Shown here piece after piece: positions 5,726-26,975 of a stretch of DNA of 48,165 nt. A program made the translations under genes and the position numbers. The notes under the pieces were generated by a model. The model made no database searches. It was not told where the DNA came from and was given only the letters and a program-made list of their open reading frames with translations. How positions within the stretch are numbered: position 1 is the first letter of the stretch; every line of letters begins with the position of its first letter. This stretch comes from a virus, in the IMG/VR virus record IMGVR_UViG_3300042882_000352, positions 1 to 48,165 of that record, one strand, 5' to 3'.

Positions 5726-8356
5726 ATGACAATTCCAATAATATCAAGAACCAACACTATTGATGAATGGCGAATTCAAACCAACCAAGAGGCGACTGCT
5801 CTCAATTCTTTAGAAACTGGTGCTTATGTAAAGTCAAACGGCACCTTAACGTTTACTAACACATCATCATTAATTCTAACATCAGAAGGCACCTCACTAC
5901 AAGTTGCTAACAGTGCGTTGATCCAGAAAGATTTGAATATTGGTAATGAGTTAGACGTTGGTGTTCAATCATCACAGACTGGTAACATTACTGTTGGTAA
6001 TATTCTTGTTGTTTTAGGTAGGGGATCTGCACTTCAAGTTGCTAATAACGCTCTAGTTAACGCTGATATGCAAGTAGTTCGTACTATCTATACTGGTAAC
6101 GTACGTGCTAATGGTAATGTAACAGTTAATGGTAATGAAACTGTAAACGGTGTTTTAAGATTAGATGGAACAAGTGATGTTCTATTCATAAACACAGGCT
6201 CAGCATACATCAACACAGCAAACATTTGGACTCTGACTTCAAACGATTCTACAATAACCTACGCGGAGATTACTGACGAATCTGTAACCACTAGCCGTAT
6301 TATTACAGGTAACATTTTAAACGCAAGCATTCAAACTCTTGGTGTAACAGCAAACGCAACTGTTGCTGGAACTTTGGGTGTTACTGGAAACGCAACATCA
6401 GGTAACGTCACAACGACTGGAACGTCTCGTGTTGGAGTATCTGTTGTTTCTGGAAATGAGTCTGTTGGTGGTGCGTTGACAGTAACTGGAAACACGAATT
6501 CAGGTAATTTAGTAACCACTGGATTAACTCATACAGGAACGCTGAGAACTACAGGTAGAGCGGATGTTGGTGGTAGTTTAGTCGTGGCTGGGGCAACAAC
6601 GCTGGTTGATACGTCCATTAACGGTAACTTACAAGTAACAGGTAATCTGACCATTACTGGTCCAACCAGTTTTGATACTAACGTTATTGTTTTAAGAAGT
6701 GTTACTCCTCAACCAAACGGTTCTGGTTTTTCTTATATTGGTGTCAATAGAGGTAACACTTCATCTGTAACAGGAACAGCAAATGCTAACGCTTATATTA
6801 GATGGAGTGAACCAGACCGACAATGGGGAGTTCGAGACGTTTTAAACACAAACGATTCCACGGCATACTCGAGATTACTGACAGCTAATTTAATTAGTAG
6901 TAGTTTGACGTCAGTTGAAGTGTCTACTATAGCAAGTTCAAATTCAGTGAACACATTGAATTCAATGCTATCTAGTGCTTATAATCAAGCTAACACAGGA
7001 ACACAATTTGCAACAAGTGCTGGCAGTTATGCTAACTCAGCCTACGCTAAAGCTAACACAGGAACTACTTTAGCTCAAGCCGCTTTTGACTCTGCTAATA
7101 ACGTAGCTCCTCAAATTCAACCAGCATATAATCAAGCTAACACAGGAACACAATTTGCAACAAGTGCTGGTTCGTATGCTAATGGTGCTTTTACAACGGC
7201 TAATACAAAACTAAGTGCTTCTGGCGGTACTATTACTGGTGATTTAGCAGTTTCTGGTAACACAACTATCTCAGGAAGTTTGATTGTTTCTGGTAATGTA
7301 ACTTACATCAACACCTCAGAGTTAAACGTTGGTGATAATATCATTAACTTGAACTCGGATGTTCTTACTTCAACATCACCGACAGAAAATGCTGGTATTA
7401 CAGTAAATCGAGGTTCATCAACAGCAACATCGTTCCTTTGGAATGAAACTATAGATAAGTGGACATTCACAAACGACGGTACAAATTATAGTAACGTTGC
7501 TTCAAGTGCTGCAGAGGTCGTTGCAAACTCAGCTCTTAATAATGCCGCAACCGCTGATCAACGAGCAGTTACCTCAGGGTCTTTTGCTAACTCAGCATAC
7601 TTACAAGCAAACACCGCTCTTAATAATGCCGCAACAGCCGACCAAAAAGCGGTTTCAGCGGGCGTTTATGCTAACGCCGCTTTTGGTATTGCTAACACAG
7701 CAAGCTCAACAGCAACTAGCGCTGGTACTTTTGCTAATACTGGTATATCCAATGCTGCATCCGCAAGTTCATATGCTAACTCAGCTTTTGGTAGAGCTAA
7801 CACAGCGTCAACCCACGCAACTTCTGGATATAACCAAGCTAACACCGCCACAACCAACGCAGCAACAGCACAAACACACGCAGCCGCAGCTTTTGGTAGA
7901 GCTAACAGTGCGAGCGCCTTCGCTACAAGCGCAGGTACATTCACTAGCACATCACAGAACTCACAATTTAATTCGATTGGTGTTGGTATAGCACCATCCA
8001 ACGTTCCTGGTGAAATTCTTGCATCTGATAACGTTACTGCATATGCAACTTCAGATAAACGATTGAAAGAAAATATCACCAACATTCCAGATGCCATCGA
8101 AAAAGTTAAAAAACTAAATGGCGTTGAATACGATTGGATAGATACATATATAGAAGAAAGGGGTGGTGAAGATGACTACTTCGTTAGAAAACACGATATT
8201 GGTTTAATTGCTCAAGAGGTTGAAGAGGTTCTTCCAGAGATCGTAGCTACTAGACCAAACGGTTTCAAAGCTATTAAATACGAACGAGTGGTTGCTTTGT
8301 TGATCGAGGCAATTAAAGATTTACAAAAACAAGTTGACGAATTAAAAGGAAAATAA
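5726..8356 (+). CDS. Tail fibre with C-terminal S74 intramolecular chaperone
   Basis: This is an 876-residue fibre-like protein. The N-terminal half is a series of short beta repeats (VTGN.T..GN, SGNLTVTG type) typical of trimeric fibre shafts. About residues 415-745 carry degenerate repeats of the form [22 protein letters not shown], interrupted at about residues 493-597 by a cassette (GDNIINLNSD, ENAGITVNRGSS, WNETIDKWTFTNDGTNYSN) that also occurs in the fibre at 19782. The C-terminus from about residue 773 (SDKRLKENI, HDIGLIAQEVEEVLPEIV, YERVVALLIEAIK) matches the Peptidase_S74 / endosialidase chaperone domain. By family this domain trimerises the fibre and then cleaves itself off just before the SDKRLKEN motif. 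Host recognition is inferred. ATG at 5726. Confidence 0.85.
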   Translation: MTIPIISRTNTIDEWRIQTNQEATALNSLETGAYVKSNGTLTFTNTSSLILTSEGTSLQVANSALIQKDLNIGNELDVGVQSSQTGNITVGNILVVLGRGSALQVANNALVNADMQVVRTIYTGNVRANGNVTVNGNETVNGVLRLDGTSDVLFINTGSAYINTANIWTLTSNDSTITYAEITDESVTTSRIITGNILNASIQTLGVTANATVAGTLGVTGNATSGNVTTTGTSRVGVSVVSGNESVGGALTVTGNTNSGNLVTTGLTHTGTLRTTGRADVGGSLVVAGATTLVDTSINGNLQVTGNLTITGPTSFDTNVIVLRSVTPQPNGSGFSYIGVNRGNTSSVTGTANANAYIRWSEPDRQWGVRDVLNTNDSTAYSRLLTANLISSSLTSVEVSTIASSNSVNTLNSMLSSAYNQANTGTQFATSAGSYANSAYAKANTGTTLAQAAFDSANNVAPQIQPAYNQANTGTQFATSAGSYANGAFTTANTKLSASGGTITGDLAVSGNTTISGSLIVSGNVTYINTSELNVGDNIINLNSDVLTSTSPTENAGITVNRGSSTATSFLWNETIDKWTFTNDGTNYSNVASSAAEVVANSALNNAATADQRAVTSGSFANSAYLQANTALNNAATADQKAVSAGVYANAAFGIANTASSTATSAGTFANTGISNAASASSYANSAFGRANTASTHATSGYNQANTATTNAATAQTHAAAAFGRANSASAFATSAGTFTSTSQNSQFNSIGVGIAPSNVPGEILASDNVTAYATSDKRLKENITNIPDAIEKVKKLNGVEYDWIDTYIEERGGEDDYFVRKHDIGLIAQEVEEVLPEIVATRPNGFKAIKYERVVALLIEAIKDLQKQVDELKGK
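6976..7950 (+). repeat. Ala/Asn-rich fibre repeats (ANSAY/AN-type) with embedded shared cassette
   Basis: Tandem degenerate repeats encode units such as [19 protein letters not shown] and [20 protein letters not shown]. They are interrupted at about 7202-7516 by a non-repeat cassette shared with 20409-20706. The repeat composition gives long spurious open frames on the other strand and in other frames, which are not genes. The repeats probably form an elongated shaft and are obvious substrates for recombination between fibre genes. Confidence 0.8.
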
Positions 8357-9429: not shown

Positions 9430-9432
9430 TTC

Positions 9433-10500
9433 ATGGCGTTAAATTCTAGTGGTGTAATAAGTTTAGGTGGCACAACAGCAGGTGAGTCCGTCAACTTGGA
9501 GTTGGGACAGGCTGCCGGTGCAACCATAACAATGAACGACACTAACTTACGCAGTCTGTTTGGTGTTGCATCTGGTACGATTTCATTGTCGCAGGGTTAT
9601 GGTAAGAGTTCCTATACTATTAATAGTACTAGAGGAATATTTGCTCAGGCTTCGCTTGTGAATCAACTTAGTTTCGCAACAGAAACCTGCTCAACAATTG
9701 TAGCTACTACGAATACCGTCGTACCTAGTACTGCAAATAATCCAACTGCTGGTTATTTTGGAGGGGGAAATTCTGGCCCTAGGCCATCAGCGCTGTTGAA
9801 TAAATTTGCATTTTCTACTAACACAATTTCACCGTTATCAGCTCTCCCTACACCAAAATCAGCTGGTGCTGGACACAACTCATCGACCAAAGGATACTTT
9901 GGTGGAGGTCTCCTCGCATCTGCTCCTACCTTCAATCCGTCGCTGGACTATGGTGTGGTTACATTTGCAACTGATACAACATCAACCTCTGCTGCCGGCA
10001 TAGTGCAAGGAAGGATAGCACATATGACAAGTGCACAGAGTCAAACAAGAGGATATCTTGTAGGTGGGTTTGTTTCCCCTAATCCAGTAGCTCAGATTGA
10101 CGGGGTTAATTACGCAACAGATACAGCTATCGATCCAGCGGGGGGATTAGTGCAAGCAAGATATGAACTCGCAGGTTTCAACTCATCGACCAAAGGATAC
10201 TTTGGTGGAGGTTGGGTTGCTCCGTATGAACCCTTGGCTCAAGTTGACGGATTTAATTTTACTACAGAAGCATCATTTGACATAGCTGCAGGTTTAGCTC
10301 AAGCAAGGAGCAAAACGAATGGTGTCAATTCATCGACCAAAGGATATTTTGGTGGAGGCGCAGGTCCCTGGGGCATGAGGTGGGGTGCTACCACTCAAGT
10401 CGACGGTATTGTATTCTCAACCGAGACATTTACTGATTATGGAGTGGCATTAACTACAGCCGTAAGGGATAGTTCCGCAATACAGGATTCTAATAACTAA
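9433..10500 (+). CDS. Kelch-like (GYFGGG-repeat) tail fibre/adhesin
   Basis: This 355-residue protein has a short conserved N-terminal module (ALNSSGVISLGGTTAGESVN ... LGQAAGATITMND ... LFGVASGTISLSQGYGKS) that I recognise as a virion-attachment N-terminus in many phage fibre proteins. From about residue 95 it has at least four blade-like repeats, three containing SSTKGYFGGG and others AGYFGGG and RGYLVGG, separated by FATDT/FSTET-type strands. This resembles a kelch/galactose-oxidase-like beta-propeller, a fold often used for carbohydrate binding. Receptor binding is inferred. It is the last fibre gene before the oxygenase/radical-SAM island. ATG at 9433. Confidence 0.8.
   Translation: MALNSSGVISLGGTTAGESVNLELGQAAGATITMNDTNLRSLFGVASGTISLSQGYGKSSYTINSTRGIFAQASLVNQLSFATETCSTIVATTNTVVPSTANNPTAGYFGGGNSGPRPSALLNKFAFSTNTISPLSALPTPKSAGAGHNSSTKGYFGGGLLASAPTFNPSLDYGVVTFATDTTSTSAAGIVQGRIAHMTSAQSQTRGYLVGGFVSPNPVAQIDGVNYATDTAIDPAGGLVQARYELAGFNSSTKGYFGGGWVAPYEPLAQVDGFNFTTEASFDIAAGLAQARSKTNGVNSSTKGYFGGGAGPWGMRWGATTQVDGIVFSTETFTDYGVALTTAVRDSSAIQDSNN
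9877..10359 (+). repeat. 33-bp direct repeats coding for the SSTKGYFGGG blade motif
   Basis: A 33-base unit occurs identically at 9877-9909 and 10180-10212, and with about three changes at 10327-10359. The near-identity at DNA level, beyond what protein conservation would need, suggests recent duplication or gene conversion of propeller blades. Confidence 0.8.
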
Positions 10501-10524
10501 ATAAAACAGAGGGTAATTTATATT

Positions 10525-11133
10525 ATGAAAAATAAAGAGTTGTTCGATAGTTTTGGTGCAATTTATATTAAGGATGTTATTCCTAAAGATCTAACACACT
10601 TTTTAACTCATGTTATGATGAGACAGCAGCACGAGATGAAAATCCATGGGATACCTTCTGACGACGAGCAAGTAAAAAAAGCTCTAGCCTGTATGAACCA
10701 CGACATCACCTTTGAAACTGTGGGCGAGCGTATTTGGCCTTTTTTAGAAAATGTATTAGGTGAAGAGTTAATCCCAACGTATAGTTACGCTCGCTTATAC
10801 ACTAACGGTAATGTTTTAGAAGAACATACTGATAGACCTCCTTGTGAAATATCAATTACTATCCAACTAGGCCGATCACACCACTACTCTTGGCCAATTT
10901 ACGCAGGCAAAAAAAGATTTGACTTAGCTGAAGGAGATGGTGTATTATATAAAGGACATGAAGTTCCTCATTGGAGAAATGTGTGTGAGGGTCCAGAGGG
11001 GTACTACTCAGGGCAAATGTTCTGTCATTTCGTTAGAGCCAAAGGTCTTTTTGCAAAGTATGCTGGAGACGAGCGATGGGAAGGCGAGATGCCTTTTGAA
11101 AGATTTAGAACTTCGGATATGAGCCTAAAATAA
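10525..11133 (+). CDS. 2-oxoglutarate/Fe(II)-dependent oxygenase-like protein 1
   Basis: This 202-residue protein has a double-stranded beta-helix oxygenase signature. The metal-binding His-x-Asp is H101-T-D103 (in LEEHTDRPPCE) and the distal His is H149 (VPHWR), preceded by the turn LAEGDGVLYKGHE. The sequence SYARLYTNGNVLEEHTD is typical of small phage and marine-bacterial 2OG oxygenases. By family it would couple 2OG decarboxylation to hydroxylation of an unknown substrate. It opens the accessory island, 24 bases after the kelch-like fibre, with a GAGGG-type ribosome site, and its TAA overlaps the next ATG by one base. The substrate cannot be read from the sequence. Confidence 0.8.
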   Translation: MKNKELFDSFGAIYIKDVIPKDLTHFLTHVMMRQQHEMKIHGIPSDDEQVKKALACMNHDITFETVGERIWPFLENVLGEELIPTYSYARLYTNGNVLEEHTDRPPCEISITIQLGRSHHYSWPIYAGKKRFDLAEGDGVLYKGHEVPHWRNVCEGPEGYYSGQMFCHFVRAKGLFAKYAGDERWEGEMPFERFRTSDMSLK

Positions 11134-11723
11134 TGATTAATAGTGAGAATGATCTACGAGTTTCTAAGTACGGAATTTCTTGGGAAAGTGTTCTATCTAG
11201 TGATGAAATTGAAATAATTCACGAGATAGCTGATGGGTTTAAAGGTATTACTGGTGAATCTGGTAAAATAATGAACGCCAACTTAGAAAATACTGAGTTA
11301 AGACGAAGCTTTGTTATTTGGCTTGAGAACAATCAAAACACACATTGGTTGTATAAAAAAATAACCGATGCTGTTTTGCGAATAAACGCTGAAAGATATC
11401 AATTTGAATTGCTAGGCGCTCAACCTATTCAGTATACTGTATACGAAGAGTATAATAGAGGAGAATATTCTTGGCATAACGATATCGTTCCTTTTACTGA
11501 CCACTCAGTTAGAAAGTTGAGTGCATCGATACTACTTTCTGATACCTCTGAATTTGAAGGAGGTTCGTTTCTTTTTTCTCCTGATGGTGAACATATAGAG
11601 ATTGAACAACATAAAGGAAGGATGATTGTGTTTCCTTCGTGGATCCCTCATTGTGTGACTCCTATTCTAAAAGGAAAAAGAATATCATTGGTAATGTGGT
11701 TGTATGGTAAAAATTTTAGATAA
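11133..11723 (+). CDS. 2OG-Fe(II) oxygenase, prolyl-4-hydroxylase-like
   Basis: The 196-residue protein shows EYNRGEYSWHND with H115-x-D117, then SASILLSD...FEGGSF, then MIVFPSWIPHCVTPILKGKR with distal H173 and a 2OG-binding R183-I-S185. This is the canonical prolyl-4-hydroxylase/PiuC-like 2OG oxygenase arrangement, with all metal and cosubstrate ligands intact. By family it hydroxylates a protein or small-molecule substrate in the cytoplasm. It is translationally coupled to both neighbours through TAATG overlaps. Prolyl hydroxylation of a phage protein is possible but not demonstrated here; the substrate is unknown. Confidence 0.85.
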   Translation: MINSENDLRVSKYGISWESVLSSDEIEIIHEIADGFKGITGESGKIMNANLENTELRRSFVIWLENNQNTHWLYKKITDAVLRINAERYQFELLGAQPIQYTVYEEYNRGEYSWHNDIVPFTDHSVRKLSASILLSDTSEFEGGSFLFSPDGEHIEIEQHKGRMIVFPSWIPHCVTPILKGKRISLVMWLYGKNFR

Positions 11724-12286
11724 TGAAAAAAATTGATATGTATCCATCGTCAATTTACATTGATGGTTATTATAATGCAAATCACATAGAAAAGCTTACG
11801 AAAGAAGCTATCGCTCTATCAGAGCTTGACAGCATAAAAAATTCTTGTAGTGTTCGCGATGGGTGGCAAAGCGCAAAAGATATATATAAATTTCCTTTGT
11901 TTTCTAAAATTGGCGATTATATCCTACACAAAACAAAAACAGAATTGTTGAAAAACGATTTTGAGCCTTTTATTTCCGCGATGTGGTTAAATGTACACAA
12001 TAAAAATGGTTTTAATCATGTGCATGTGCATCCTGGTGGATGGTACTCGGGAGTTTACTATATAAAATGTTCAGAAAGATCAGGAAGAATCAAATTCACT
12101 GATCCTAGACCTGGTGCAGAAATGAGTATATATCATCAAGCAGTCGAAAGAGATATACATGCGATTAGTCCAAAGGTCGGTGATTTGATTTTATTCCCCT
12201 CTTGGCTTCCTCATTTAGTAGAATCTAATTATGATGACGCTGATAGAATTTCTTTGTCTTTTAATATTGAATTAAATAATGTATAG
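11723..12286 (+). CDS. Putative 2OG-Fe(II) oxygenase of the TIGR02466 type
   Basis: The 187-residue protein has the block WLNVHNKNGFNHVHVHPGG then SGVYYIK...GRIKFTDPRPG and LILFPSWLPHLVESN...RISLSFN. The N-x-H-x-H-P plus SGVYY pattern and the FPSWLPH distal His (H164) with R175 match the TIGR02466 family of putative 2OG-Fe(II) oxygenases. The usual HxD is replaced by closely spaced histidines (H99, H101, H103), as I recall for that family. It starts inside the TAATG junction with the previous gene and overlaps the next by 8 bases, so it belongs to one translationally coupled operon. Substrate unknown. Confidence 0.75.
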   Translation: MKKIDMYPSSIYIDGYYNANHIEKLTKEAIALSELDSIKNSCSVRDGWQSAKDIYKFPLFSKIGDYILHKTKTELLKNDFEPFISAMWLNVHNKNGFNHVHVHPGGWYSGVYYIKCSERSGRIKFTDPRPGAEMSIYHQAVERDIHAISPKVGDLILFPSWLPHLVESNYDDADRISLSFNIELNNV

Positions 12287-12887
12287 CGTAAAAATTATTG
12301 ATGATTTTTTTGATTCTCCTAAAGAAGTTAGGGATTATGCTCTATCTCAAAGATTTTATAAAAGACCAGGAAACTATCCAGGTATTAGAACAGACAGAAT
12401 ATCTGATATAAACCCCTCCCTTTTTCATCATACGATTATCAAAGTAACTAGTTTATACTTTAATAAAGATAATCTAGTAGAGTACGATTCTATATGTAAT
12501 TTTCAATTAATCGATGGTAAGTATGTCGATGGTTGGATTCATCAAGACGATTTGGGTTATTTTGATGTTGCAGGAGTGATTTACTTAACTCCCGATGCTC
12601 CTATAAAGTGCGGAACCTCTATATACAAGGCTATATCGTCGGTAATCGAGTGTCCTAAATTACCTCCAGTTCAATTTACTTCAGACGACGAGTGCTTTGA
12701 GCATCACACAAAAGAACAATCGCTATTCAACTCTCAATTTTTAAAAATAGCAGATATAGGAAACGTCTATAATAGAGCGGTTATATATCCTGTAACCGAT
12801 TGGCATACTCAATCGGGGTTCTTTGGAAAAAATAAAGAAGATTCTAGACTAACCATGGTTTTTTTTATAAAGTTTAAATTATTATGA
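12279..12887 (+). CDS. DUF6445-like / 2OG-oxygenase-fold protein
   Basis: This 202-residue protein begins SVKIIDDFFDSPKEVRDYAL and contains YPGIRTDR, then GWIHQDDLGYFDVAGVIYLTP with H88-x-D90, a CGTSIYK segment, and near the end DWHTQSGFFG with H176 and R190 in the right order for a distal His and 2OG-binding Arg. The layout resembles DUF6445-type proteins, which look like divergent double-stranded-beta-helix oxygenases. Catalysis is inferred from spacing, not from a strongly conserved signature. It overlaps the upstream gene by 8 bases and the downstream gene by 4 (ATGA). Confidence 0.65.
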   Translation: MYSVKIIDDFFDSPKEVRDYALSQRFYKRPGNYPGIRTDRISDINPSLFHHTIIKVTSLYFNKDNLVEYDSICNFQLIDGKYVDGWIHQDDLGYFDVAGVIYLTPDAPIKCGTSIYKAISSVIECPKLPPVQFTSDDECFEHHTKEQSLFNSQFLKIADIGNVYNRAVIYPVTDWHTQSGFFGKNKEDSRLTMVFFIKFKLL

Positions 12888-13921
12888 TAAAAAATATAGA
12901 TTATAACGTTCTTGAGAATGAACTAAAAAATATATCAAATTCAAATAAATATGAAGATAAGTTGGAGTGTGCTTATCATTATGGTCATTTTGGGTTTAAT
13001 GCTTATACTTTGAAATATTTGAAGGACGCTAACTATCTCGACGAAGAAGCTTTCGATAAACATTTAGGCCAATTAGATTCTACCTATCATCCTAATTGTA
13101 AAAAACAATCAGAATTAATATTTAACAACTATTCTTCTATTGAAAGAGGTAATTGTGATTTTTTATCTGTTGATGAATTTGAAATTGTTTTTGACGACTA
13201 CCATCTAAACCAAAGAGAAATTGGGATTTACATACACATTTTACCTTTTATAGAATCTGTTAAAAAAAGAAGTAAGTTTAAATCCATAAAAATTAATTGT
13301 AACGAGAGAATGCGTGAATTATTTAATATGTATTTTCCTTATATTGAAATAGGAACGTCAACAAATAAAGTATCCTACTACCAGTTGATTGAAAACGTCT
13401 ATCAAAATGGTGGTTCTTCTTTAATAAGAGAAGCGGTGAAAGGTATTTCAAAAAGAGTAATCAGAAACAAGAACCCTAGTTTTATTGGCGTAAATTGGTT
13501 TGCTAACAATATCTACGATAGATATCGTTCTATTCCTATAGGACTATTAATCAATACTGTAGGAAGTCACTATAAAGATTTAAATGTTATGTCTTTACAG
13601 TATAATAATCCTGAGTATGAAATTGACATATTCAACAGATACTCAAAAAACAAAATAGCCGAGGTTTATGATAACGATATACAGTCTACTCCGTTGGAGA
13701 TATTAGAGGCAGTGAGTCGGTGCTATTGTTTTGTAGGAATTCAAAGTGAGGCTGCAATGATGGCATATTGTCTGTGTGGTATTCCAACAATCGTTACAGC
13801 CTCTTCTCCTAATATGTATTGGTATTTTCTTGACGGGCTAAACCCATTTTTACACTCAGTAAGAATGCGCTTTTCAGGCGATTACGATTACATTATTAAA
13901 AATATAAGAAAGTTGTTATGA
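12884..13921 (+). CDS. Glycosyltransferase-like protein (GT-B C-terminal half resembling GT9/GT41-type)
   Basis: The product is 345 residues long and AT-rich in coding sequence. The C-terminal half reads like the nucleotide-sugar-binding lobe of GT-B enzymes: FIGVNWFANN, a LNVMSLQYNNPEYE strand, then TPLEILEAVSRCYCFVGIQSEAAMMAYCLCG and IPTIVTAS. This parallels the 'side-domain, D..ISVDTA..HLAGALGKP' arrangement of GT9 heptosyltransferase and TPR-linked glycosyltransferases. The N-terminal half (about residues 1-110) is not recognised. No classical catalytic residue can be named, so glycosyl transfer is a moderate-confidence inference. It overlaps both neighbours by four bases, embedded between oxygenase-like genes. 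Confidence 0.5.
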   Translation: MIKNIDYNVLENELKNISNSNKYEDKLECAYHYGHFGFNAYTLKYLKDANYLDEEAFDKHLGQLDSTYHPNCKKQSELIFNNYSSIERGNCDFLSVDEFEIVFDDYHLNQREIGIYIHILPFIESVKKRSKFKSIKINCNERMRELFNMYFPYIEIGTSTNKVSYYQLIENVYQNGGSSLIREAVKGISKRVIRNKNPSFIGVNWFANNIYDRYRSIPIGLLINTVGSHYKDLNVMSLQYNNPEYEIDIFNRYSKNKIAEVYDNDIQSTPLEILEAVSRCYCFVGIQSEAAMMAYCLCGIPTIVTASSPNMYWYFLDGLNPFLHSVRMRFSGDYDYIIKNIRKLL

Positions 13922-14571
13922 TGGAATATCAAAATTATTTTTTATATCAAATCGCTAATTCAGATATTAGGCATTATCCTTGGACTCATGTATTATTCAA
14001 GGATATTTTTCATTCTAATCACTACGATTTATTATTGAACAATCTTCCAGACGAATCTTATTTAATAGATATTACAAAAGTAAACAAACATCCTGTCGAC
14101 TATCCAAACAATCGTTTGATACTTAATAATTACGACGCTTTGCCGGTTATCCAAAAACAGTTTTGGGTTGATCAAAACGACTTTTTTACGGATGGAAAGC
14201 TCAAAGATATGTTGTTGAAAAAGTTCTGGCCTCTGTTGATCGATAGAATTGGGCAACAACATATACATAAAGTTGAGTTTTACGACACATTTCAATTAAC
14301 CAAAGATCTAAAAGGGTATGTGTTAGCAGCTCATCCTGATGCTTTCAATAAAGTTTTTACTATCGTTATGAATCTACCTAAAGATAATTTTAACGCTAAT
14401 ATGGGTACGGTAGTGTATAATAACGACAAAGAAATAGTTTATAATTCTAAGTACTTACCAAACACTGGGTTTGGAGTGTTCAGGAGTGATAACTCCTGGC
14501 ATGGTGTAGAAGAGACTGACGAAGATAGATGGACTATACAATATACAATATGGGGTAAAGACAAGGGCTAG
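13918..14571 (+). CDS. 2OG-Fe(II) oxygenase-like protein, divergent
   Basis: The 217-residue protein has a C-terminal half with KGYVLAAHPDAFNKVFTIVM (H139-x-D141), MGTVVYN, then LPNTGFGVFRSDNSWHGVEE (H195) and DRWTIQYTIWG (R204). The order His-x-Asp, about 54 residues, His, about 9 residues, Arg is that of 2OG/Fe(II) oxygenases, and the PNTGFGVF turn is reminiscent of the family. The N-terminal about 120 residues are not recognised. It overlaps the glycosyltransferase-like gene by four bases and is followed by a 15-base gap to the radical SAM gene. Substrate unknown. Confidence 0.6.
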   Translation: MMEYQNYFLYQIANSDIRHYPWTHVLFKDIFHSNHYDLLLNNLPDESYLIDITKVNKHPVDYPNNRLILNNYDALPVIQKQFWVDQNDFFTDGKLKDMLLKKFWPLLIDRIGQQHIHKVEFYDTFQLTKDLKGYVLAAHPDAFNKVFTIVMNLPKDNFNANMGTVVYNNDKEIVYNSKYLPNTGFGVFRSDNSWHGVEETDEDRWTIQYTIWGKDKG

Positions 14572-14586
14572 ATTGACTTTTATATT

Positions 14587-16194
14587 ATGAAACCAAAAAT
14601 ACTTTTAGTGTATCCTAACTTACCTTTGATGATGGCTCCTGCTATCAGTATGGGTATTTTCAATGCTTTATGCAAACAGCACGAGTGTGACGTTGAGTTA
14701 TTTGAGACTACTCAATACAGCGACGCTTACTCAAACAGACACATTCGTATGACTGAGATTGGTGCTAATAGACCAAACAAAGACGACGAAGTCAAGGATA
14801 TGTTTCATATCAAACCAACGTCAGAGATCATTCCAGATTTTATTGCTCACGTTGAAACGTTTAATCCAGATTTAATTCTAATGAGTGTTCAAGAAGATGT
14901 TTGGACTATGGCGCAAACGCTACTAAGTTCAATTAAACATCTAAACGTTGAACACATCTTAGGAGGAATATTTCCCACCTCAGCATCTCATATAGTTTTA
15001 GGTAATCCACTTGTTAAACGAATTGCTGTACACGAGGGTGAAAATATAGTCATTCAAGCTATTAATTGTTTGAAGACGGGTGGCAACTTAAACTCTATTG
15101 ATGGTATTAAATATAAAGATAGATTTGGGTTGATCCAAAGTAACAAACTTCCTGAGCTTTGTGATATATCAAAGGTTATGCCGGACTTTACGTGTTTTGC
15201 TGATTATAGATGGCAAAGACCTATGGGTGGTAGGTTGTTTAAAAGAGCTGTAAGTATGGAAACGTATCGTGGATGTCCTTATAACTGCACGTACTGCAAT
15301 AGTCCTGGTACTAGGGAGTTTTCTAAGACTAATGGTACTGGTAATTTCATGCGTAGAAAATGCGCTGAAACTATAGAAAAAGAATACTTACATTACAGAG
15401 ATTTATATAATCCTGATTTAATTATGTTCCAAGACGATAGTTTTCTTGCTAGACCTAAAAAAGAAATCTTTGAGTTTTGTGAGATGTGGAGTAAATATAA
15501 AGTTCCATTTTGGTTTAATACTCGCATAGAGAATTGTGATCCAGATATTTTATCAGCATTAAAAGATGCTGGAGTGTATCGTATGACTTTTGGTTTAGAG
15601 AGTGGAAACGAAGATTATCGAGATAAAGTTCTAAGGCGTGGAGTTAAAAACGAAAAGTATATTGAATATTTTAATTATATTAATGATAGCAATATTCCAT
15701 ATAGCTTAAATGTTATTATAGGTATGCCTTTTGAAACTAGAGAGATGGTACTAGAAACTGCTGACGTGGTTCATGCTAGTAGGGGATATGACGGATTGAC
15801 TATATCTATGTTTCAACCATATCACGGAACAGAAATGAGAAAGATGTCTGTAGAGAATGGGTTTTTATCTAATTCGTATATCAATGGCCAAGATAGCAAT
15901 GAAATGGGTGGTGGCTATCTAGATTCTTGGGCGCTTAATATGCCTGAACCCTATCTACAGCAAGATGACGTGAACAGATTAGTTAAAACGTTTGCCTTGT
16001 ATGCTCACTTTCCTAAGGAAAGATGGTCTGAGGTGTATGAAGCAGAAACAAACGAAGATATATACAAAGAGTTGATGTCACATTACCAAAAGGAGTTCTT
16101 TGGGGATATTCAACAAGGTGGGGTAGATAGAATCAATTCTAAATTCTGTAATAAGCACGATTCATCAAGTACGTATCAATATGAATCAATATAA
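14587..16194 (+). CDS. B12-binding-type radical SAM enzyme
   Basis: This 535-residue protein has a Rossmann-like N-terminal region (KILLVYPNLPLMMAP at the start, FNPDLILMSVQEDVW near residue 95, HILGGIFPTSAS and VKRIAVHEGENIV near residues 120-155) matching the cobalamin-binding domain of class B radical SAM enzymes. It is followed by the [4Fe-4S]-binding C230-x3-C234-x2-C237 (GCPYNCTYC). Downstream are MFQDDSF, MTFGLESGNEDYRDKVL and VIIGMPFET, typical of the radical SAM TIM-barrel. By family such proteins perform radical methylation or C-C/C-S chemistry; the substrate is unknown. It overlaps the next radical SAM gene by 14 bases, implying a joint pathway. Confidence 0.85.
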   Translation: MKPKILLVYPNLPLMMAPAISMGIFNALCKQHECDVELFETTQYSDAYSNRHIRMTEIGANRPNKDDEVKDMFHIKPTSEIIPDFIAHVETFNPDLILMSVQEDVWTMAQTLLSSIKHLNVEHILGGIFPTSASHIVLGNPLVKRIAVHEGENIVIQAINCLKTGGNLNSIDGIKYKDRFGLIQSNKLPELCDISKVMPDFTCFADYRWQRPMGGRLFKRAVSMETYRGCPYNCTYCNSPGTREFSKTNGTGNFMRRKCAETIEKEYLHYRDLYNPDLIMFQDDSFLARPKKEIFEFCEMWSKYKVPFWFNTRIENCDPDILSALKDAGVYRMTFGLESGNEDYRDKVLRRGVKNEKYIEYFNYINDSNIPYSLNVIIGMPFETREMVLETADVVHASRGYDGLTISMFQPYHGTEMRKMSVENGFLSNSYINGQDSNEMGGGYLDSWALNMPEPYLQQDDVNRLVKTFALYAHFPKERWSEVYEAETNEDIYKELMSHYQKEFFGDIQQGGVDRINSKFCNKHDSSSTYQYESI

Positions 16195-17158
16195 AATACC
16201 TTTATCGATAGACAGAGCTGTTATTGAAATAAACGGCGGGTGTAACTATTCTTGTCAAATGTGCCCTCAAACAACTGGTCGTGGCAAAAATTGGCTAAAG
16301 AAAATATCACTCAAAGAGTTTGAGCGAGTTGTCGCTGAGTGTGCTGAGTATGGTTTGAATGTTGTTAATCTTGAGGGCTCTGGCGAGCCAACCTTGAACA
16401 GAGACTTACCAAAATATATAGAGATCGTTCGTAAATATGGAGCTAAGCCTTTCATATACACAAACGGATATAATTTGTATGGTAGTTTTATGCGAGAGTG
16501 TGTTGATGCTGGTTTAGCTCTTGCTAGATTTTCCATCATTGGATACAACCAATTGAAGTATATGCAATGGATGTCACAAGATTCATTCAATGTTATTAAA
16601 CAGCACGCAAAAGATATGCAAGACTATATTAAACTATCGAATGCTGATTGCATAGTGGCTTCTTATCATCTTATACTAGACAACGATAATGTTGATTACG
16701 AGGTTGAGCAATATCGTAAGAACTTTATTGATCAAGTTGGTAGTCATGCTGAAATTTGGAAAATGCATAATTGGTCTGGGGAATACGACTCCGACTATAA
16801 AAGAAGGGGTAATAAGAGATCTTGCGGAAGACCTTTCTCACCAGACTTAACGGTTAGAGCTGGTGGTACTAAAGGAACGAGATTGTCGATAGCTCCGTGT
16901 TGTCAAACTTTGGGTAAAGATGATTTAGCTGATTTAGGATCCATTCAGAATAAATCTATCGAAGAGGTTTGGAATGGACCAGAATATCAATTACTAAGAA
17001 AACTACATACAGAGAAAAGGTTCGACGAAATTCCTTTCTGTAAGGATTGCGACTTCTTGTATGAAGATAATGATGTGTTGGTTTGGAAAAATAACGAGTT
17101 GGTTGATATAAACAAAATGAAAGGCACTAGCTTTAAGCTTGATGATTTTATTAAATGA
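16181..17158 (+). CDS. Radical SAM enzyme with SPASM/Twitch-type auxiliary cluster region
   Basis: The 325-residue protein has the radical SAM cluster motif C21-x3-C25-x2-C28 (INGGCNYSCQMCPQT), the GSGEPTLN 'GGE' strand, and a C-terminal cysteine-rich part with C215 (SCGRPF), C240-C241 (APCCQT), LGSIQNKSIEEVWNG and C287-x2-C290 (FCKDCDF). That pattern is typical of SPASM/Twitch domains holding auxiliary Fe-S clusters, used in peptide maturation, aminoglycoside-type dehydrogenation and related reactions. The substrate cannot be deduced. Its start lies inside the upstream radical SAM gene and its stop overlaps the next ATG (ATGA). Confidence 0.85.
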   Translation: MNQYKIPLSIDRAVIEINGGCNYSCQMCPQTTGRGKNWLKKISLKEFERVVAECAEYGLNVVNLEGSGEPTLNRDLPKYIEIVRKYGAKPFIYTNGYNLYGSFMRECVDAGLALARFSIIGYNQLKYMQWMSQDSFNVIKQHAKDMQDYIKLSNADCIVASYHLILDNDNVDYEVEQYRKNFIDQVGSHAEIWKMHNWSGEYDSDYKRRGNKRSCGRPFSPDLTVRAGGTKGTRLSIAPCCQTLGKDDLADLGSIQNKSIEEVWNGPEYQLLRKLHTEKRFDEIPFCKDCDFLYEDNDVLVWKNNELVDINKMKGTSFKLDDFIK

Positions 17159-17754
17159 ATAATATTTTTACCTTATGCAGCACATCCAACAAAATTCAGC
17201 ACTTTGAGGGGGTTATTGACCCGTCAATTATTTCTTGGGAGGACGTAGCGGATTATTTTTCCGTAAGAACAATTAAATCCGTTGAATTGATTAGAACTAA
17301 AAAAATTAGCATTCCTAAGATAAGATTATATCAAGACGTAGATTTTATTTTAAATGAAATATCAACAGGAGCATCTTTTTGTATATCTAAATTTTTTAAT
17401 GTAAGCTATAAAACTAGTGTTTTATGGGAGCAATTTTGTGATTGGTATCCTAATTTAGGGGTGGATTTTCATTTATACGGTGGATTATTACCTGAGTCCA
17501 CTTCGTTTCCCGCTCATAACGACTTAGCTAATAATTATATTATACAGTTTGATGGGCAATGTGAGTGGGTAATATACAAAGAGCAAGCTTCTTTTGAGGA
17601 AGCTTTTAATTATAATATTATTCCAGAGGATAGGCTAACCGAAGAGCGCAGAATCATATTAAATCCTGGCGATATTATATACATTCCCTCAGGTAAATAT
17701 CACAAATGTATTCCTTTAGGAAAAAGACTTTCGCTAAGCGTCCCTATTTTATAG
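17155..17754 (+). CDS. JmjC/cupin-like Fe(II)/2OG oxygenase
   Basis: The 199-residue protein has STSFPAHNDLANNYIIQFDG with H121-x-D123, WVIYKEQ, and a C-terminal LNPGDIIYIPSGKYHKCIPLG with distal H183, followed by KRLSLSVPI. This is the arrangement of cupin_4/JmjC oxygenases of the ribosomal-oxygenase type: a metal HxD, the 'PGD..YIPSG..H' turn and the final strand. By family these hydroxylate proteins. The substrate here is unknown. It overlaps the SPASM radical SAM gene by four bases and is separated by six bases from the sulfotransferase gene. Confidence 0.75.
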   Translation: MNNIFTLCSTSNKIQHFEGVIDPSIISWEDVADYFSVRTIKSVELIRTKKISIPKIRLYQDVDFILNEISTGASFCISKFFNVSYKTSVLWEQFCDWYPNLGVDFHLYGGLLPESTSFPAHNDLANNYIIQFDGQCEWVIYKEQASFEEAFNYNIIPEDRLTEERRIILNPGDIIYIPSGKYHKCIPLGKRLSLSVPIL

Positions 17755-17760
17755 GTATAT

Positions 17761-18723
17761 ATGAACGAAAAATTAATAATCATTACTCAAATACATAGGA
17801 GTGGGGGTACTCTTCTATCACAATTGTTTGACGCACATCCTCAATTACATGCACACCCTAGCGAGCTTGAGATTTGGAAGCCAAAACAATTGTGGGGTAA
17901 ACTAGACACTTACGTAGATTTCAACCCAAAAAATAAATCCTGGCAAGAATGTTTTTTTGAGTTAGAACAAAAAAATTTAACTAATGCTGGAAGAAGGGGA
18001 ATATACAATAAACCAGGATTTAACCAATTTTCCAGAGATGAAACTTACAGATTTGATTATTCGATTGACGAGCATGCAGAATTATTTAAAAATTATTTCG
18101 AAGAATTAACTGTAATTTCTAGAAAATCGATTGTTATGATTTATTTACTTTCGTTTTTTCGCGTATGGAACAAGACCAAATACACCGAAAAAAAATACAT
18201 AACAGCATTGATTGCTAATATGTGGTGTGACCAATTATCAATTATTAGATTTTTTTCTGACTTTCCTGACGCTAAGATAATTTTTGTGTTGAGAAGACCT
18301 GATACGTGGTTGAAATCAGCTCTTATCCACAGAGCATTCAAAGAAGACGATGAATCTGCTTCCATCTGTCTGTTAGAATATTGGAAAGATTCGGTTAGAA
18401 ATTTATACGAGTTTAGTGAGATATATGGTAACAATATAGTTCCTATAGTATACGAAGATCTAACAAACCAACCAGAACACATTTTAAGAAAGCTCTGTAA
18501 TATTATACAGATCGATTTTCATCCGTGTCTTTTGACACCGACATTTTCAGGAGAAAAAATCTATCCTAACTCATCTTTTAACATAGACAAAAAATTAATT
18601 GTTTCTGATGATAGTAGAGAACCTCCCAAATTTACCGAAAGAATTAATTTACACTTAAGTAAATTTTACATGCCTGAATACAATTTAACTAGAAAAATAA
18701 TTTTAGATAGGTATTATTCGTGA
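17761..18723 (+). CDS. PAPS-dependent sulfotransferase
   Basis: This 320-residue protein opens with LIIITQIHRSGGTLLSQLFD followed by HPQLHAHPSELE. This is the 5'-phosphosulfate-binding loop and active-site region of the sulfotransferase family. The 3'-phosphate-binding motif is recognisable as IIFVLRRPDTWLKSALIHR near residues 178-196, and VPIVYEDLTNQPEHILRKLC is the conserved 'YEdL..dP...l..l...l' segment. By family it transfers sulfate from PAPS to a hydroxyl group of a glycan, protein or small molecule. The acceptor is unknown. It shares a four-base overlap with the APS-kinase-like gene, so donor synthesis and use appear coupled. Confidence 0.85.
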   Translation: MNEKLIIITQIHRSGGTLLSQLFDAHPQLHAHPSELEIWKPKQLWGKLDTYVDFNPKNKSWQECFFELEQKNLTNAGRRGIYNKPGFNQFSRDETYRFDYSIDEHAELFKNYFEELTVISRKSIVMIYLLSFFRVWNKTKYTEKKYITALIANMWCDQLSIIRFFSDFPDAKIIFVLRRPDTWLKSALIHRAFKEDDESASICLLEYWKDSVRNLYEFSEIYGNNIVPIVYEDLTNQPEHILRKLCNIIQIDFHPCLLTPTFSGEKIYPNSSFNIDKKLIVSDDSREPPKFTERINLHLSKFYMPEYNLTRKIILDRYYS

Positions 18724-19130
18724 GTAAGATATTAATTATGGGGTTACCTGGCTCAGGTAAAACGACATTAGCCTCAAAGTTGTTTTTGGAAGTGTGTAAA
18801 GATAAAGACTCTGTATTTTGGATTAACGCGGATGCAGTTCGTCAGCTTTATAACGATTGGGATTTTTCTTCTGTAGGAAGATTAAGGCAAGCAAAAAGAA
18901 TGTGTGATATGTGTGGCGAGCATCCTGACGCACTCAATATAGTCGATTTTATAGCTCCTACTGAAGAAATAAGGAACGTTTTTAAGGCTGATTTTGTAAT
19001 ATGGATGAACACAATTTCTAAGGGTAGATTTGACGACACCAATAGAGTGTTTGAGCCTCCCTCAAAATACGATTTAAAAATAACAAATTTTAACTATTCC
19101 GTTACGCATATTGCATCTATGATAATATAA
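18720..19130 (+). CDS. Short adenylylsulfate kinase-like protein (PAPS synthesis)
   Basis: The 136-residue P-loop protein has GLPGSGKTTLA (Walker A, about residues 8-18), FWINADAVRQLYNDWDFSSVGRLRQAKRM in place of the APS-kinase 'DGDnvR..L...lgFs..dR..nirR' block, a VDFIAPTEEIR strand corresponding to the 'FISPfr..R' segment, and GRFDDTNRVFEPPSKYDL corresponding to the shortened lid. It is clearly shorter than the usual about 200 residues and the nucleotide-binding lid is reduced. By family it phosphorylates APS to PAPS, the donor for the overlapping sulfotransferase. It starts with GTG at 18720 inside the upstream stop (GTGA). A related P-loop kinase with another substrate remains possible. 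Confidence 0.7.
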   Translation: MSKILIMGLPGSGKTTLASKLFLEVCKDKDSVFWINADAVRQLYNDWDFSSVGRLRQAKRMCDMCGEHPDALNIVDFIAPTEEIRNVFKADFVIWMNTISKGRFDDTNRVFEPPSKYDLKITNFNYSVTHIASMII

Positions 19131-19134
19131 GTCT

Positions 19135-19142
19135 TATAAATA
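19135..19142 (+). promoter_or_regulatory. T4-type late promoter (TATAAATA)
   Basis: This is a perfect match to the T4 late promoter octamer, 28 bases upstream of the TTG start at 19163 and just after the accessory island ends. By analogy with T4, transcription by RNA polymerase carrying gp55 would start near 19148. It would drive the second adhesin block separately from the island. Confidence 0.75.
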
Positions 19143-22475: not shown

Positions 22476-25400
22476 ATGGCAAATACAATAATTCAAATTA
22501 AAAAGTCTACGGTAAGTGGAAACGTACCATCAGTATTACAGCCTGGTGAGTTGGCAATCAACGTCGAAGATGGTGATTTGTATTATGGTAATAGTAATGG
22601 TATCGTAACGTTATTTGATGCTGTTACTGAGCCTGCAGGTTTGGATAGCGAGATCCAATTTAACAATATGGGTTCGTTTGGATCCAATTCAGATTTCACC
22701 TACTCCTATGCTCGCGGCTCATTATCGGTACCCGATATCCAAGCATCATACGGTACAATTGGTGGATATGATGTTAGTAATACTTTAGCTCAAGTAATAG
22801 ATACTAGCTCAAGTGCTGTTGGTATCGCTAATAGTGCTTTTAATGCTGCAAACAGCGCAAGTAATACCGCAAGCAGTGCAGGATCATATGCTAATAGTGC
22901 GTTCAGTAAAGCAAACACTGCCTCGGGTGCTAATGGACAAATTCAATTTAATTTAAACGGCGCTTATGGTGTGTCTAGTAATTTATATTTTGAGACTTCA
23001 AATAACACACTTTATGTATCTAACATTAAGGCGATACAGAACTTAGATGCTCAAAATGTAATTGCATACAATAAATTTTATGCTGGTATAGCAACAGAAT
23101 CATCTACTCCACTACCCAATCTAATTGCTCAGTTTACTGGTAATACGGATTCATACGTTCAAGTCAACGCTCAAAATATTGATCCACATGGCTCTGCGGA
23201 TTATGTCATCACTGCTGATGTTGGTGACGACGAAAGAAATTATATTGATTTAGGTATGCAAGGTTCTCAATTAGAACAAGGTGCATTGTTTCCTTTAGAT
23301 GGTTATTTGTATGTTCAAGGAAACACTAGTCAATTAGGCGGTAATTTAATAATTGGTACTACGTCAGAAACACCAGGCATAAAAACTAGAATTGTTGCTG
23401 GTGGTACTGAATTGTCTAATGTAGTTGCAGAATTTAGTCAAGATGGTATTACTTTCATTCCTGAGATTACTTCTAATACAACTAGTAGAATATCATCACA
23501 TGCTAATAGTGCTTACATACAAGCTAATACAGGAACACAATACGCAACAAGTGCTGGTTCATACGCTAACTCAGCTTTTAGTGTTGCTAATACTAAGTTT
23601 AACACCTCAGGTGGTACAATCTCAGGTGATGTTTTTGTTGAAGGAAAAATAACAGCCAACACAATAGGCGGAGATGAAGGTGGTGAAATTCTTCTCGGGA
23701 AAGCTTTGTCTAACACGACTCTGTCCGGTACGGGTGTAACCATTGACGTATATCAAAACAAACTGCGAATATTTGAGCAAGGCGGTTCAGCTCGTGGTGC
23801 GTTTATTGATTTAACGTCTGCTAGCGCTGGAGTAGGAACAGATTTATTAGCAAGTTCAAGTGGAACAGACTCTGTTGCAAGAAGCTCTGCTCAAGCTGCG
23901 TATCATCATGCAAACGGTGCATACGTTCAAGCTAACACAGGAACAACATTAGCGCAATCTGCTTACGATGCCGCCAACAATTCTGTCGACACTTGGGTTC
24001 GTGGTGCTGCTAATAGTGCTAGTTCATATGCTAATAGTGCTTATAGTCAAGCTAATACCGCAACGACTAATGCTTCAACCGCCGACCAGAGAGCCGTAAC
24101 ATCAGGTAGTTATGCTAATAGTGCTTACGGTCAAGCCAATACAGCGACTACGAACGCAGCAACAGCAGACCAACGAGCCGTAACATCAGGTTATTATGCT
24201 AATGCCGCGTTTGATATTGCTAATACAGCAAACCTAACTGCATCAAGTGCTAGTTCGTATGCTAACTCAGCTTATTTACAAGCTAACACAGCAACAACAA
24301 ATGCCTCTACGGCTGACCAACGTGCTGTTACATCTGGTGATTATGCTAATGCCGCTTTTGGTATTGCTAATACATCAAACTTAACTGCAACAACTGCTAG
24401 TTCGTATGCTAACTCAGCATATACTCAAGCTAATACAGCTAATACACTGGCACAATCTGCATTCGATACAGCAAATACTAAGTTTAATTCTACTGGTGGA
24501 ACTATTACTGGTTTTGCCAACGTGTCTAGTAATTTGTCTGTTGGTACGTATATAGATATTGCTACAGATTTAGCAGATCCTTCATACAAAGAAGGTAGGG
24601 TATTCTACGACTCAGGCGCAAAATCTTTAGCGTATTTTAACGATAGTTCATCTTACGTTCACGCTGGTCAGGATATAGTAATACGAGTTTGGAACAATAC
24701 TGGTTCAACATTGCCTAGAGCAAACTGTGTATTTATTTCAGGCGGAGCTTCAGCAAACGGATACCCAAGCGTATATCTAGCTAATGCATCTTTGGCTGCA
24801 AATGCTGAAGTTATTGGAGTAACGACTACAGATATTCCTCCCAACGCTTATGGGTTTGCTCTAACGGCTGGTAGACTTGAAGGATTAAATACATCATTAC
24901 TTACTGCGGGTGCAGAGTTGTACTTGTCTGCAAGTGAGACTGGTAAATTTACTCAGACTGTTCCTGCTACCCCAAACATTCCATTAACTATTGGGTATGT
25001 GACTAGCTCAGATTTAACTAACGGCACCATGCTTGTTAACATACACTTAATGGAAGGAGCCAACAAGACAACAGGTTCTATTCTGTTCGCTCGTGATAAT
25101 AAAATTGACCAAGATAACACAGATTTATATTACGATTATGTAAATCATAGGTTGGGTATTGGTACAAATAACCCAACAGCAAGCTTACACGTTGTGGGAT
25201 CTGGATTGTTTACGGGTAACGTAACAATTTCAGGTAACTTACTAGTTTCAAACGCTCAATCTATTACTACATCGCAGTTAACTGTTGGTGGTAACACGAT
25301 TATTCTTAATGATGCTGTTACAGGAACCCCAACATCTAACGCGGAAATTATTGTAAATAGAGGCACTTCAGCTAACGTTTACATTAAATGGGCTGAAGAT

Positions 25401-26975
25401 ATCAACGAATGGGTTATGTTTGAAGATGGGGCATATCCAGAAGGGCATATTCTACATTCAGAAAAAACATTTAGTACTTGGACACAATATACTGCTGCAT
25501 CCGCATACGAGAAATTAACTCATCCTGTTGGTGGTGACGTGTCAAATACGACTAATGAACTTGCAAAATCAGGTTCACAAACAGCAAATATAGCAAGCTC
25601 TCATGCTATTGCGGGTTACACTCAAGCTAACACGGCTACAACTAATGCCGCAACTGCTGATCAGCGAGCTGTTACATCTGGTGATTATGCTAATGCTGCT
25701 TTTGGTGTAGCTAACACAGCTGCGACTAATGCTTTGAGTGCAGGTTCGTATGCTAACGCCGCTTTTGGTATTGCTAATACTGCAACGACTAATGCAGCAA
25801 GCGCTAGCTCTTACGCTAACTCAGCATACACTCAAGCTAACACCGCGACTACGAATGCAGCTACCGCTGACCAAAGAGCAGTCACTTCTGGTGTTTATGC
25901 TAATGCCGCTTTTGGTATTGCTAATACTGACGTTACAACTATATCTACTACAGCAGGTATTTACGGTAATAATACAATTGTTCCTGTAATAACTTTAGCC
26001 GCAAATGGTAGAATATCATCGATATCAAACGTTGCAATTACTGGTGTAACGGGTCCTACTGGTCCTACTGGTCCAACTGGTCCAACTGGTCCCACTGGTG
26101 CCGATTCGACAGTCGCTGGTCCTACTGGTCCAACTGGTCCAACTGGTCCAACTGGTGCCGCATCAACGGTTCCAGGTCCCACTGGCCCTACTGGCCCTAC
26201 TGGTGCAGCATCAACGGTTCCTGGTCCTCCTGGTCCTACTGGTCCAGCGTCATCCGTTGCTGGTCCTACTGGTCCTACTGGTCCAACTGGTCCTACTGGT
26301 CCTACTGGTCCTTCGGGCGCAACTGTTGATAATACTGATAGAACATTAAAATCATTAAGATTTACAGGTGTTGGTGGTGATTCGGGGAATGGTGCAAGTT
26401 TTGATGGTTATGCACTCTATCAACAAGGTGGTGGTTGGACTCATCCTTATCCAGACTTATGTATTGGATATCATACGGGTATTAAGATTGGTGCTTATTT
26501 TGGTTACAATGGCACAAGAATTTATAATAACTCAGATTGGGTCACCCAGATTGCTAGTTTTGGTGACGGAGATAATAACTTTCGCAGTTACTACAACGTT
26601 ATTGCCTATGCATCGGACCGTAGACTGAAAGAAAATATCCGTCCCATTGAAAATGCAGTATCTAAAGTGTGTTCCATAACCGGTATGGTATTTGACTGGA
26701 AAGATAGTGTAACCGACCTAGGATTCACACCAGTTGATAAAACTGAAGTGGGTGTTTTTGCTCAAGATGTTGAAGCGGTTTTACCAGAAGCAGTAGCAAT
26801 AGCACCTTTTGATTACGACTGGGAAAAACCTGATAAAAGTAAATCGGGCGAGAGATACTTGACTGTTAAATATGAGAAAATAGTTCCGTTGTTGATACAG
26901 GCTATTAAAGAACAGCAGAATCAACTGGATGAACTACGTGATTTAATTAAAGGACAAACAAATGCCAACTTATGA
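22476..26975 (+). CDS. Giant tail fibre with collagen-like repeats and S74 chaperone
   Basis: This 1,499-residue fibre has an N-terminal module ([37 protein letters not shown]) of the phage attachment type. Repeat regions at about residues 115-155, 340-380, 470-675 and 1045-1150 carry ADQRAVTSG and [16 protein letters not shown] units. A domain with [12 protein letters not shown] and [18 protein letters not shown] resembles the cassettes of the other fibres. It also has a collagen-like GPT segment (about residues 1193-1281) and a C-terminal Peptidase_S74 chaperone from about residue 1378 (SDRRLKENI ... [13 protein letters not shown] ... [14 protein letters not shown]). By family the S74 part trimerises the fibre and cleaves itself off. 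It is the largest likely receptor-binding protein here. Confidence 0.85.
22828..25930 (+). repeat. ADQRAVTSG / YANSAY repeat blocks in the giant fibre
   Basis: Blocks of units such as [16 protein letters not shown] and [18 protein letters not shown] occur at about 22828-22920, 23490-23590, 23880-24490 and 25600-25930, separated by unique beta-rich domains. They are of the same type as in the fibres at 5726 and 19782. Confidence 0.8.
26049..26318 (+). repeat. Collagen-like Gly-Pro-Thr repeat tract
   Basis: Runs of the nine-base unit GGTCCTACT and close variants encode Gly-Pro-Thr triplets, broken by short ADSTVA, AASTVP and ASSVA linkers and one Gly-Pro-Pro. It forms a collagen-like stalk just before the fibre tip. 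The DNA repeats make length variation by slippage likely. Confidence 0.9.

Follow-up and report, generated by a model that had tools for sequence, protein, structure and literature searches.

Pelagimyophages and cyanomyophages carry a host recognition cluster (HRC), named by Zaragoza-Solas et al. 2020 (PMC7029224), which is a large, non-syntenic, hypervariable island reaching from VrlC to gp14 and holding fibres, glycosyltransferases and, in some genome pairs, cassettes of radical S-adenosylmethionine (radical-SAM) genes; modification of the host O-chain is the reading favoured there for the glycosyltransferases. A second described system, the lipopolysaccharide (LPS) and glycan clusters of T4-like cyanophages, lies near hli03 or phoH (PMC3037559). 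The subject of this work is an island of eleven genes at positions 10525-19130 of IMG/VR record IMGVR_UViG_3300042882_000352, encoding oxygenases, radical-SAM enzymes, a putative glycosyltransferase and predicted sulfation enzymes. The whole 48,165-base contig, called the window below, belongs to a marine T4-like myovirus; its gp23 is 66% identical to that of Synechococcus phage S-H38 and 63% identical to that of Methylophilales phage Melnitz, and the source phage is uncultured, Kyanoviridae-like and T4-like.

Arrays of small oxygenase genes in cultured Kyanoviridae offer a further comparison. In Pelagibacter phage HTVC008M, five oxygenase-type genes that overlap, including one similar to gene A of the island, separate the fibre genes from gp13, and a tryptophan halogenase is nearby; variants of this array adjoin fibres and/or gp13 in P-RSM4, S-PM2, S-CREM1, S-RIM44 and P-TIM40, accompanied by a halogenase or a carbamoyltransferase. 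The isolate arrays are made up of small, overlapping 2-oxoglutarate (2OG), JmjC and A-like genes, the last labelled "ferrochelatase". Homology extends to genes A, B, C, D, I and T of the window (Table 1). Roles in 2-oxoglutarate and nitrogen control and in DNA repair (PMC3037559), or in host reprogramming (PMC9602691), have been proposed for these oxygenases. Both cyanophages and pelagiphages have many of them, up to 24 in phage S-SCSM1, and their functions in viruses have, according to PMC9602691, not been specifically investigated.

The island lies inside the published HRC interval, because a VrlC-like gene stands on its left and gp13-like and gp14-like genes stand on its right. As in the HRC, the window has tail fibres, recognized by S74 domains and tail-fibre PHROGs, mixed with enzyme genes, radical-SAM genes among them, between VrlC and gp14, and its content is variable: another viral locus (L040) has the window's VrlC, L_fibasm, fibres and gp13, yet a different enzyme set, with only gene H in common. 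Like the isolate arrays, it contains a run of overlapping 2OG-type genes of ~200 aa near fibres and gp13, an A-like gene included, and like the cyanophage LPS clusters it places glycan-tailoring enzymes in a plastic region. It differs from each of them as well. A text search of the HRC paper gave no sulfotransferase or oxygenase, whereas the island has both; the isolate arrays are paired with tryptophan halogenase or carbamoyltransferase, whereas this one is paired with two radical-SAM genes, gene E, a sulfotransferase and a kinase; and, in contrast to the LPS clusters, the island sits in the fibre region without genes for nucleotide diphosphate (NDP)-sugar synthesis. An earlier note on this DNA had singled the island out as a candidate undescribed system. 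That description was too strong, as the slot is the published HRC and fibre-side 2OG arrays occur in several isolates; the general phenomenon is already known, because the HRC was published with fibres, glycosyltransferases and radical-SAM cassettes. The type of location is thus already described, and the enzyme combination is new within the collections searched, where no other record brings together a 2OG array, a radical-SAM pair, a sulfotransferase and an adenosine 5′-phosphosulfate (APS)-kinase-like gene. With a little less than even confidence, we read the island as a late, mix-and-match tailoring cassette in the HRC that would most likely modify the phage's own adjacent fibres, and the best reading of its product would be a glycan or side-chain decoration that is oxidised and sulfated.

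All eleven open reading frames lie on the + strand with zero internal stops. The earlier note had described them as overlapping almost throughout by 1-14 bases, and this was borne out: eight junctions are overlaps (1, 1, 8, 4, 4, 14, 4 and 4 bases), and the remaining two are gaps of 15 bases before G and 6 bases before J. The families it had named are supported by Pfam, PHROG or motif evidence for ten genes (five 2OG-type, one JmjC-type, two radical-SAM, a sulfotransferase and an APS-kinase-like gene), with B, C, D, G, H, I, J and K above the Pfam cut-off, and its assignment of E to the GT-B type is plausible from distant matches. Its placement of the island in an adhesin region, with a late promoter next, was also upheld, as fibres stand on both sides and a late-promoter-like box, TATAAATA, begins at 19135. 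This sequence and the CTAAATA box ahead of gene A are not over-represented across the whole window, and 6 of 6 TATAAATA sites in it are on the + strand. No membrane segment was found in any of the eleven products (mean Kyte-Doolittle maximum 1.42), which look soluble, and a Pfam search of the same products found no flippase, polymerase or NDP-sugar synthesis gene in the island.

Table 1. Positions of the island genes, their neighbours and late-promoter-like boxes in the window.
Feature	Position	Strand	Matches and remarks
VrlC-like protein, left border of the HRC	427..5484	+	1685 aa; 29% identity to VrlC of Pelagibacter phage HTVC008M; phrog_358
Tail fibre with S74 chaperone domain	5726..8356	+	
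Fibre-like protein (kelch-like fibre of the earlier note)	9433..10500	+	phrog_19111
CTAAATA late-promoter-like box	10497..10503	+	28 bases upstream of gene A
A, 2OG-type oxygenase-like, HTD motif	10525..11133	+	phrog_2954 (2.5e-42); no Pfam match
B, 2OG-Fe(II) oxygenase	11133..11723	+	PF13640 (3.6e-13), above cut-off
C, 2OG-Fe(II) oxygenase	11723..12286	+	PF13759 (1.6e-25), above cut-off
D, oxygenase-like, HQD motif	12279..12887	+	DUF6445, above Pfam cut-off; phrog_1644
E, probable GT-B-type glycosyltransferase (putative)	12884..13921	+	
F, weak 2OG-Fe(II) oxygenase, HPD motif	13918..14571	+	PF13640, below cut-off
G, radical SAM, B12-binding-type N-terminal fold	14587..16194	+	nearest solved relatives AprD4, OxsB, MgmA
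H, SPASM radical SAM	16181..17158	+	PF04055 and PF13186, above cut-off; nearest solved relative BtrN
I, JmjC_2/cupin-type oxygenase	17155..17754	+	PF08007 (7.2e-13), above cut-off; relatives in cyanophages
J, sulfotransferase (predicted)	17761..18723	+	PF13469 (Sulfotransfer_3, 8e-17), above cut-off
K, APS-kinase-like P-loop kinase	18720..19130	+	APS_kinase, 34.8 bits against a cut-off of 21.1
TATAAATA late-promoter-like box	19135..19142	+	3′ of last gene K; begins next fibre block
Tail fibre with S74 domain and Gly-Pro-Thr collagen-like runs, candidate acceptor	22476..26975	+	
S, further 2OG-type oxygenase	27190..27762	+	phrog_61
T, further 2OG-type gene	27842..28378	+	phrog_274 and phrog_61
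gp13-like neck protein, right border	28477..29424	+	phrog_211

An HxD or HxH motif is present in each of A, B, C, D, F and I, and with S and T, which precede gp13 outside the island, the region has eight 2OG/JmjC-type oxygenases in all. Relatives of A were found on 26 IMG/VR contigs at 51-56% identity, with B close downstream in 25 of the 26, and three loci (L158-L160) have the order A, B, one gene, gp13. The position of these oxygenases in a late fibre operon, interleaved with glycosyltransferase-like, radical-SAM and sulfotransferase genes, and in several phages, points to decoration of adhesins or host surfaces over nitrogen metabolism or DNA repair. It is very improbable that they direct the nitrogen metabolism of the host by using up or sensing 2-oxoglutarate, or that they repair DNA, both of which were proposed for cyanophages (PMC3037559); besides their location, the Pfam search of the eleven products found no DNA-repair domain and no oxygenase of the TET/JBP type, as would be expected in a DNA-hypermodification cluster. 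A DNA-hypermodification reading of the island was likewise rejected, having no domain or context in its support. The library label of phrog_2954, "ferrochelatase", was set aside for A, which is taken as 2OG-type, since the HTD motif does not back it. It is one of three PHROG labels on oxygenase-like proteins that seem wrong or carried over, the others being "minor coat protein" (phrog_1644) and "DNA endonuclease V" (phrog_274).

The last two genes of the island are predicted to act in sulfation. J carries the motifs expected for binding 3′-phosphoadenosine 5′-phosphosulfate (PAPS), namely RSGGT at residue 13 (5′-phosphosulfate-binding loop) and RRPDTWLKS at residue 178 (3′-phosphate-binding motif), and is a predicted PAPS-dependent sulfotransferase; in the PDB it matches polyketide sulfotransferases best and protein-tyrosine sulfotransferase weakly. 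K, at 136 aa, has the P-loop GLPGSGKT, and its best PDB match is a solved APS kinase; the Pfam domain covers residues 4-89, and a short EPP region aligned at a sub-threshold score. Genes of the K type stand beside a sulfotransferase or sulfotransferase-like gene in three unrelated settings: the window itself (J-K), a group of four loci (L144, L145, L146 and L148) in which K follows a pair of PF13640 oxygenases and a weak match to Sulfotransfer_3, and L150, in which about 0.55 kb separates the end of a strong Sulfotransfer_3 gene from a K-nucleotidyltransferase fusion downstream. The sulfotransferase-like proteins of the second setting (L145:7507-8001, 164 aa; L148:6464-7159, 231 aa) are below the Pfam cut-off and lie in a phage structural region, and that of L145 gave no PDB match. 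A kinase unrelated to sulfation is an open alternative for K, in keeping with relatives in GenBank Stenotrophomonas and Clavibacter phages that have no sulfotransferase nearby and with L164, L165 and L176, in which K lies among C-, D-, A- and B-type genes and no sulfotransferase was detected; against it, L144-L146/L148 and L150 restore the link between K and sulfotransferases. PAPS supply is therefore a likely but not certain role for K, because of the three loci that have K without a sulfotransferase. In L164, a 299-aa uncharacterised protein (8701-9600), possibly a beta-propeller, lies between the D- and K-type genes and overlaps both.

Some K-type kinases have a HIGH-type nucleotidyltransferase as a fusion partner or downstream (L147:8001-8855, L150:8001-8849, L151:8001-8852 and L154:7532-8321), which also resembles nicotinamide mononucleotide (NMN) adenylyltransferase in the fusions. 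This partner could be either NMN adenylyltransferase-like or a miniature ATP-sulfurylase, and in the latter case the fusions would be a small phage PAPS synthase.

The radical-SAM pair G and H occupies the middle of the island. G has the core motif CPYNCTYC at residue 230 (CxxxCxxC) and matches PF04055 at 7.5e-19. Its predicted fold, with a predicted local distance difference test (pLDDT) score of 76, matches OxsB, TsrM and AprD4; G may or may not use cobalamin, because the B12-binding match is below the Pfam cut-off (18.3 bits against 32.1). H shares invariant cysteines with its relatives. The nearest solved structures by sequence to G and H, respectively, are AprD4, a radical-SAM diol dehydratase, and BtrN, a radical-SAM/SPASM dehydrogenase, both from aminoglycoside biosynthesis and both acting on sugar-like molecules. 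G and AprD4, however, share about 16% identity in the structural match, the cobalamin enzyme OxsB fits equally well, and the Pfam search found no NADPH reductase partner of the AprD3 type among the eleven genes. These structural relatives support radical chemistry on a sugar-like substrate without specifying the reaction.

An unbiased scan found 21 viral relatives of G, with H in the flanking sequence of about half; H adjoins G in L014-L019, and in L009, L010, L012 and L013 it stands at a distance of one or two genes. One locus (L017) has the order c73, H, G, 2OG gene, gp13, which is independent support for linking the radical-SAM pair, the 2OG genes and the slot that the island occupies. In another (L002), G overlaps a gene for a UDP-sugar dehydrogenase, itself preceded by an epimerase gene, and the loci of bacterial G homologues in Alphaproteobacteria and Methylobacter also encode cytidylyl- and nucleotidyltransferases, epimerases and further enzymes of sugar pathways.

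The scan of IMG/VR with H confirmed at least 500 viral loci; the best 80 of 500 were used for neighbourhood counts and collapsed at 90% identity to 39 non-redundant groups, and GenBank phages gave one match, phage C48C1. Directly upstream of H in 27 of the 39 groups is a gene of family c3, which has a GxGD motif near its start and no Pfam match, and which we take to be GT-B-like. In 24 groups a GT25 gene is found no more than 6 kb from H, and other genes near H are a methyltransferase (11), a carbamoyltransferase (10), a 2OG gene (9) and Sulfotransfer_2 (8). The H family occurs in glycan clusters with carbamoyltransferase and GT25, a likeness to the cyanophage LPS clusters (PMC3037559). On at least 500 viral contigs and almost unisolated, these SPASM radical-SAM enzymes (L035-L113) make up a large viral family that is uncharacterised.

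Gene E has no match in Pfam, PHROG or PDB. Its C-terminal half resembles an unannotated C-terminal domain of bacterial tetratricopeptide repeat (TPR) proteins (E-value about 1e-7; 3 of 398 genomes sampled), presumably a GT-B domain, and E is plausibly GT-B-like on that basis. A profile comparison of E with the c3 family gave no match, and an AlphaFold model made without an alignment (pLDDT 34) was not usable for the fold.

The earlier note had proposed a gene-neighbourhood search for the eleven-gene order, with independently scattered homologues counting against its reading. The complete order was not found elsewhere in IMG/VR scans with A, E, F, G, H, I, J and K, nor among GenBank phage matches to the same eight proteins; these single-protein scans reach close relatives only. 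The homologues are nevertheless not scattered at random. Sub-blocks that recur in other phages are A-B, C-D-x-K-A-B, H-G-2OG-gp13 and 2OG-2OG-sulfotransferase-like-kinase, and the blocks A-B, C-D-x-K-A-B and H-G-2OG adjoin fibres or gp13 there. It is improbable, though consistent with part of this record, that there is no single pathway and that separate cassettes (the 2OG array with the kinase, the radical-SAM pair, and the sulfotransferase) have accreted in a hypervariable region, each with its own substrates and some possibly idle. Sub-blocks are indeed found separately while the full order is not, a pattern scan gave no close viral relatives for J, E, F and I, and isolates carry a 2OG array with a halogenase; yet 8 of 10 junctions overlap, on one strand and with a shared start, and K is repeatedly paired with sulfotransferase-like and 2OG genes, as H is with G and 2OG genes. 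The arrangement of the island is confirmed and its interpretation in the earlier note is partly supported; a single pathway of all eleven genes, and its acceptor, are inferences.

In a cassette acting on the phage's own fibres, the 2OG and JmjC oxygenases would hydroxylate the acceptor, E would add a sugar to it, G and H would perform radical chemistry on the sugar transferred by E, and K would produce the PAPS from which J moves sulfate, the enzymes forming a chain of soluble cytoplasmic proteins. The acceptor would be the fibre proteins encoded on both sides of the island, and the outcome would be an altered or diversified virion surface for binding the host or for escaping binding. One of these fibres (22476-26975) has about 19 collagen-like Gly-Pro-Thr triplets, grouped in three runs; in some other organisms, collagen-like repeats of the form Gly-X-Thr carry sugars on their Thr residues. 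This reading is favoured because the products appear soluble, flippase, polymerase and NDP-sugar genes are absent from the island, late-promoter-like boxes are present, and the flanking genes encode fibres, one with Gly-Pro-Thr runs. Also in its favour are the support for ten of the eleven families, the position between VrlC and gp13, the sub-blocks that adjoin fibres or gp13 in other phages, the glycan and nucleotide-sugar neighbours of H and G relatives, and the three settings that place K next to sulfotransferase or sulfotransferase-like genes.

Several points weigh against this assignment. The link from island to fibre is drawn from gene position and sequence, and the role of E as a glycosyltransferase is putative. 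With no NDP-sugar synthesis gene in the island, the sugar donor would need to be supplied by the host or by another part of the phage genome. In the collagen-like runs, the Y position holds Thr and not Pro, which does not suit prolyl hydroxylation of the classical collagen type. H-type clusters are found away from fibres too, phage C48C1 being an example, and modification of the host O-chain is preferred in the published work (PMC7029224).

Ranked second is an unlikely alternative in which the cassette would remodel a host surface glycan late in infection, in the manner of serotype conversion or superinfection exclusion, by acting on lipid- or nucleotide-linked host sugars. It agrees with the published reading for HRC glycosyltransferases (PMC7029224) and cyanophage LPS genes (PMC3037559), with the presence of the H and G families in glycan clusters beside NDP-sugar enzymes, carbamoyltransferase and GT25, and with the nucleotide-sugar loci that hold bacterial homologues of G. 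The island, however, lacks genes for a flippase, a polymerase, any membrane protein and NDP-sugar enzymes; its late-promoter-like boxes and location in a fibre operon would be late for a surface change; and six to eight oxygenases are atypical for O-antigen pathways.

Modification of the phage's own fibres can be extended, doubtfully, to a wider proposal, that marine T4-like phages modify their own adhesins post-translationally, through hydroxylation by oxygenases, a sugar tailored by radical-SAM enzymes and sulfation with phage PAPS, and that the enzyme sets are swapped cassette-wise as fibres are. If so, cyanophage 2OG arrays and halogenases would be adhesin-modifying enzymes and not metabolic genes. 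Simpler versions of the array exist in cultured phages, making the question directly testable.

Two minor observations concern the isolate arrays and the right border of the island region. Tryptophan halogenase genes stand among 2OG arrays near fibres or gp13 in S-CREM1 (L116), HTVC008M (L117), S-RIM44 (L118) and P-TIM40 (L142), where halogenation may belong to the decoration system proposed here and not to antibiotic synthesis. From 28477 onward, the window continues with gp13-, gp14-, gp15- and gp17-like genes, and an Hc2 match (phrog_460) lies at 29578.

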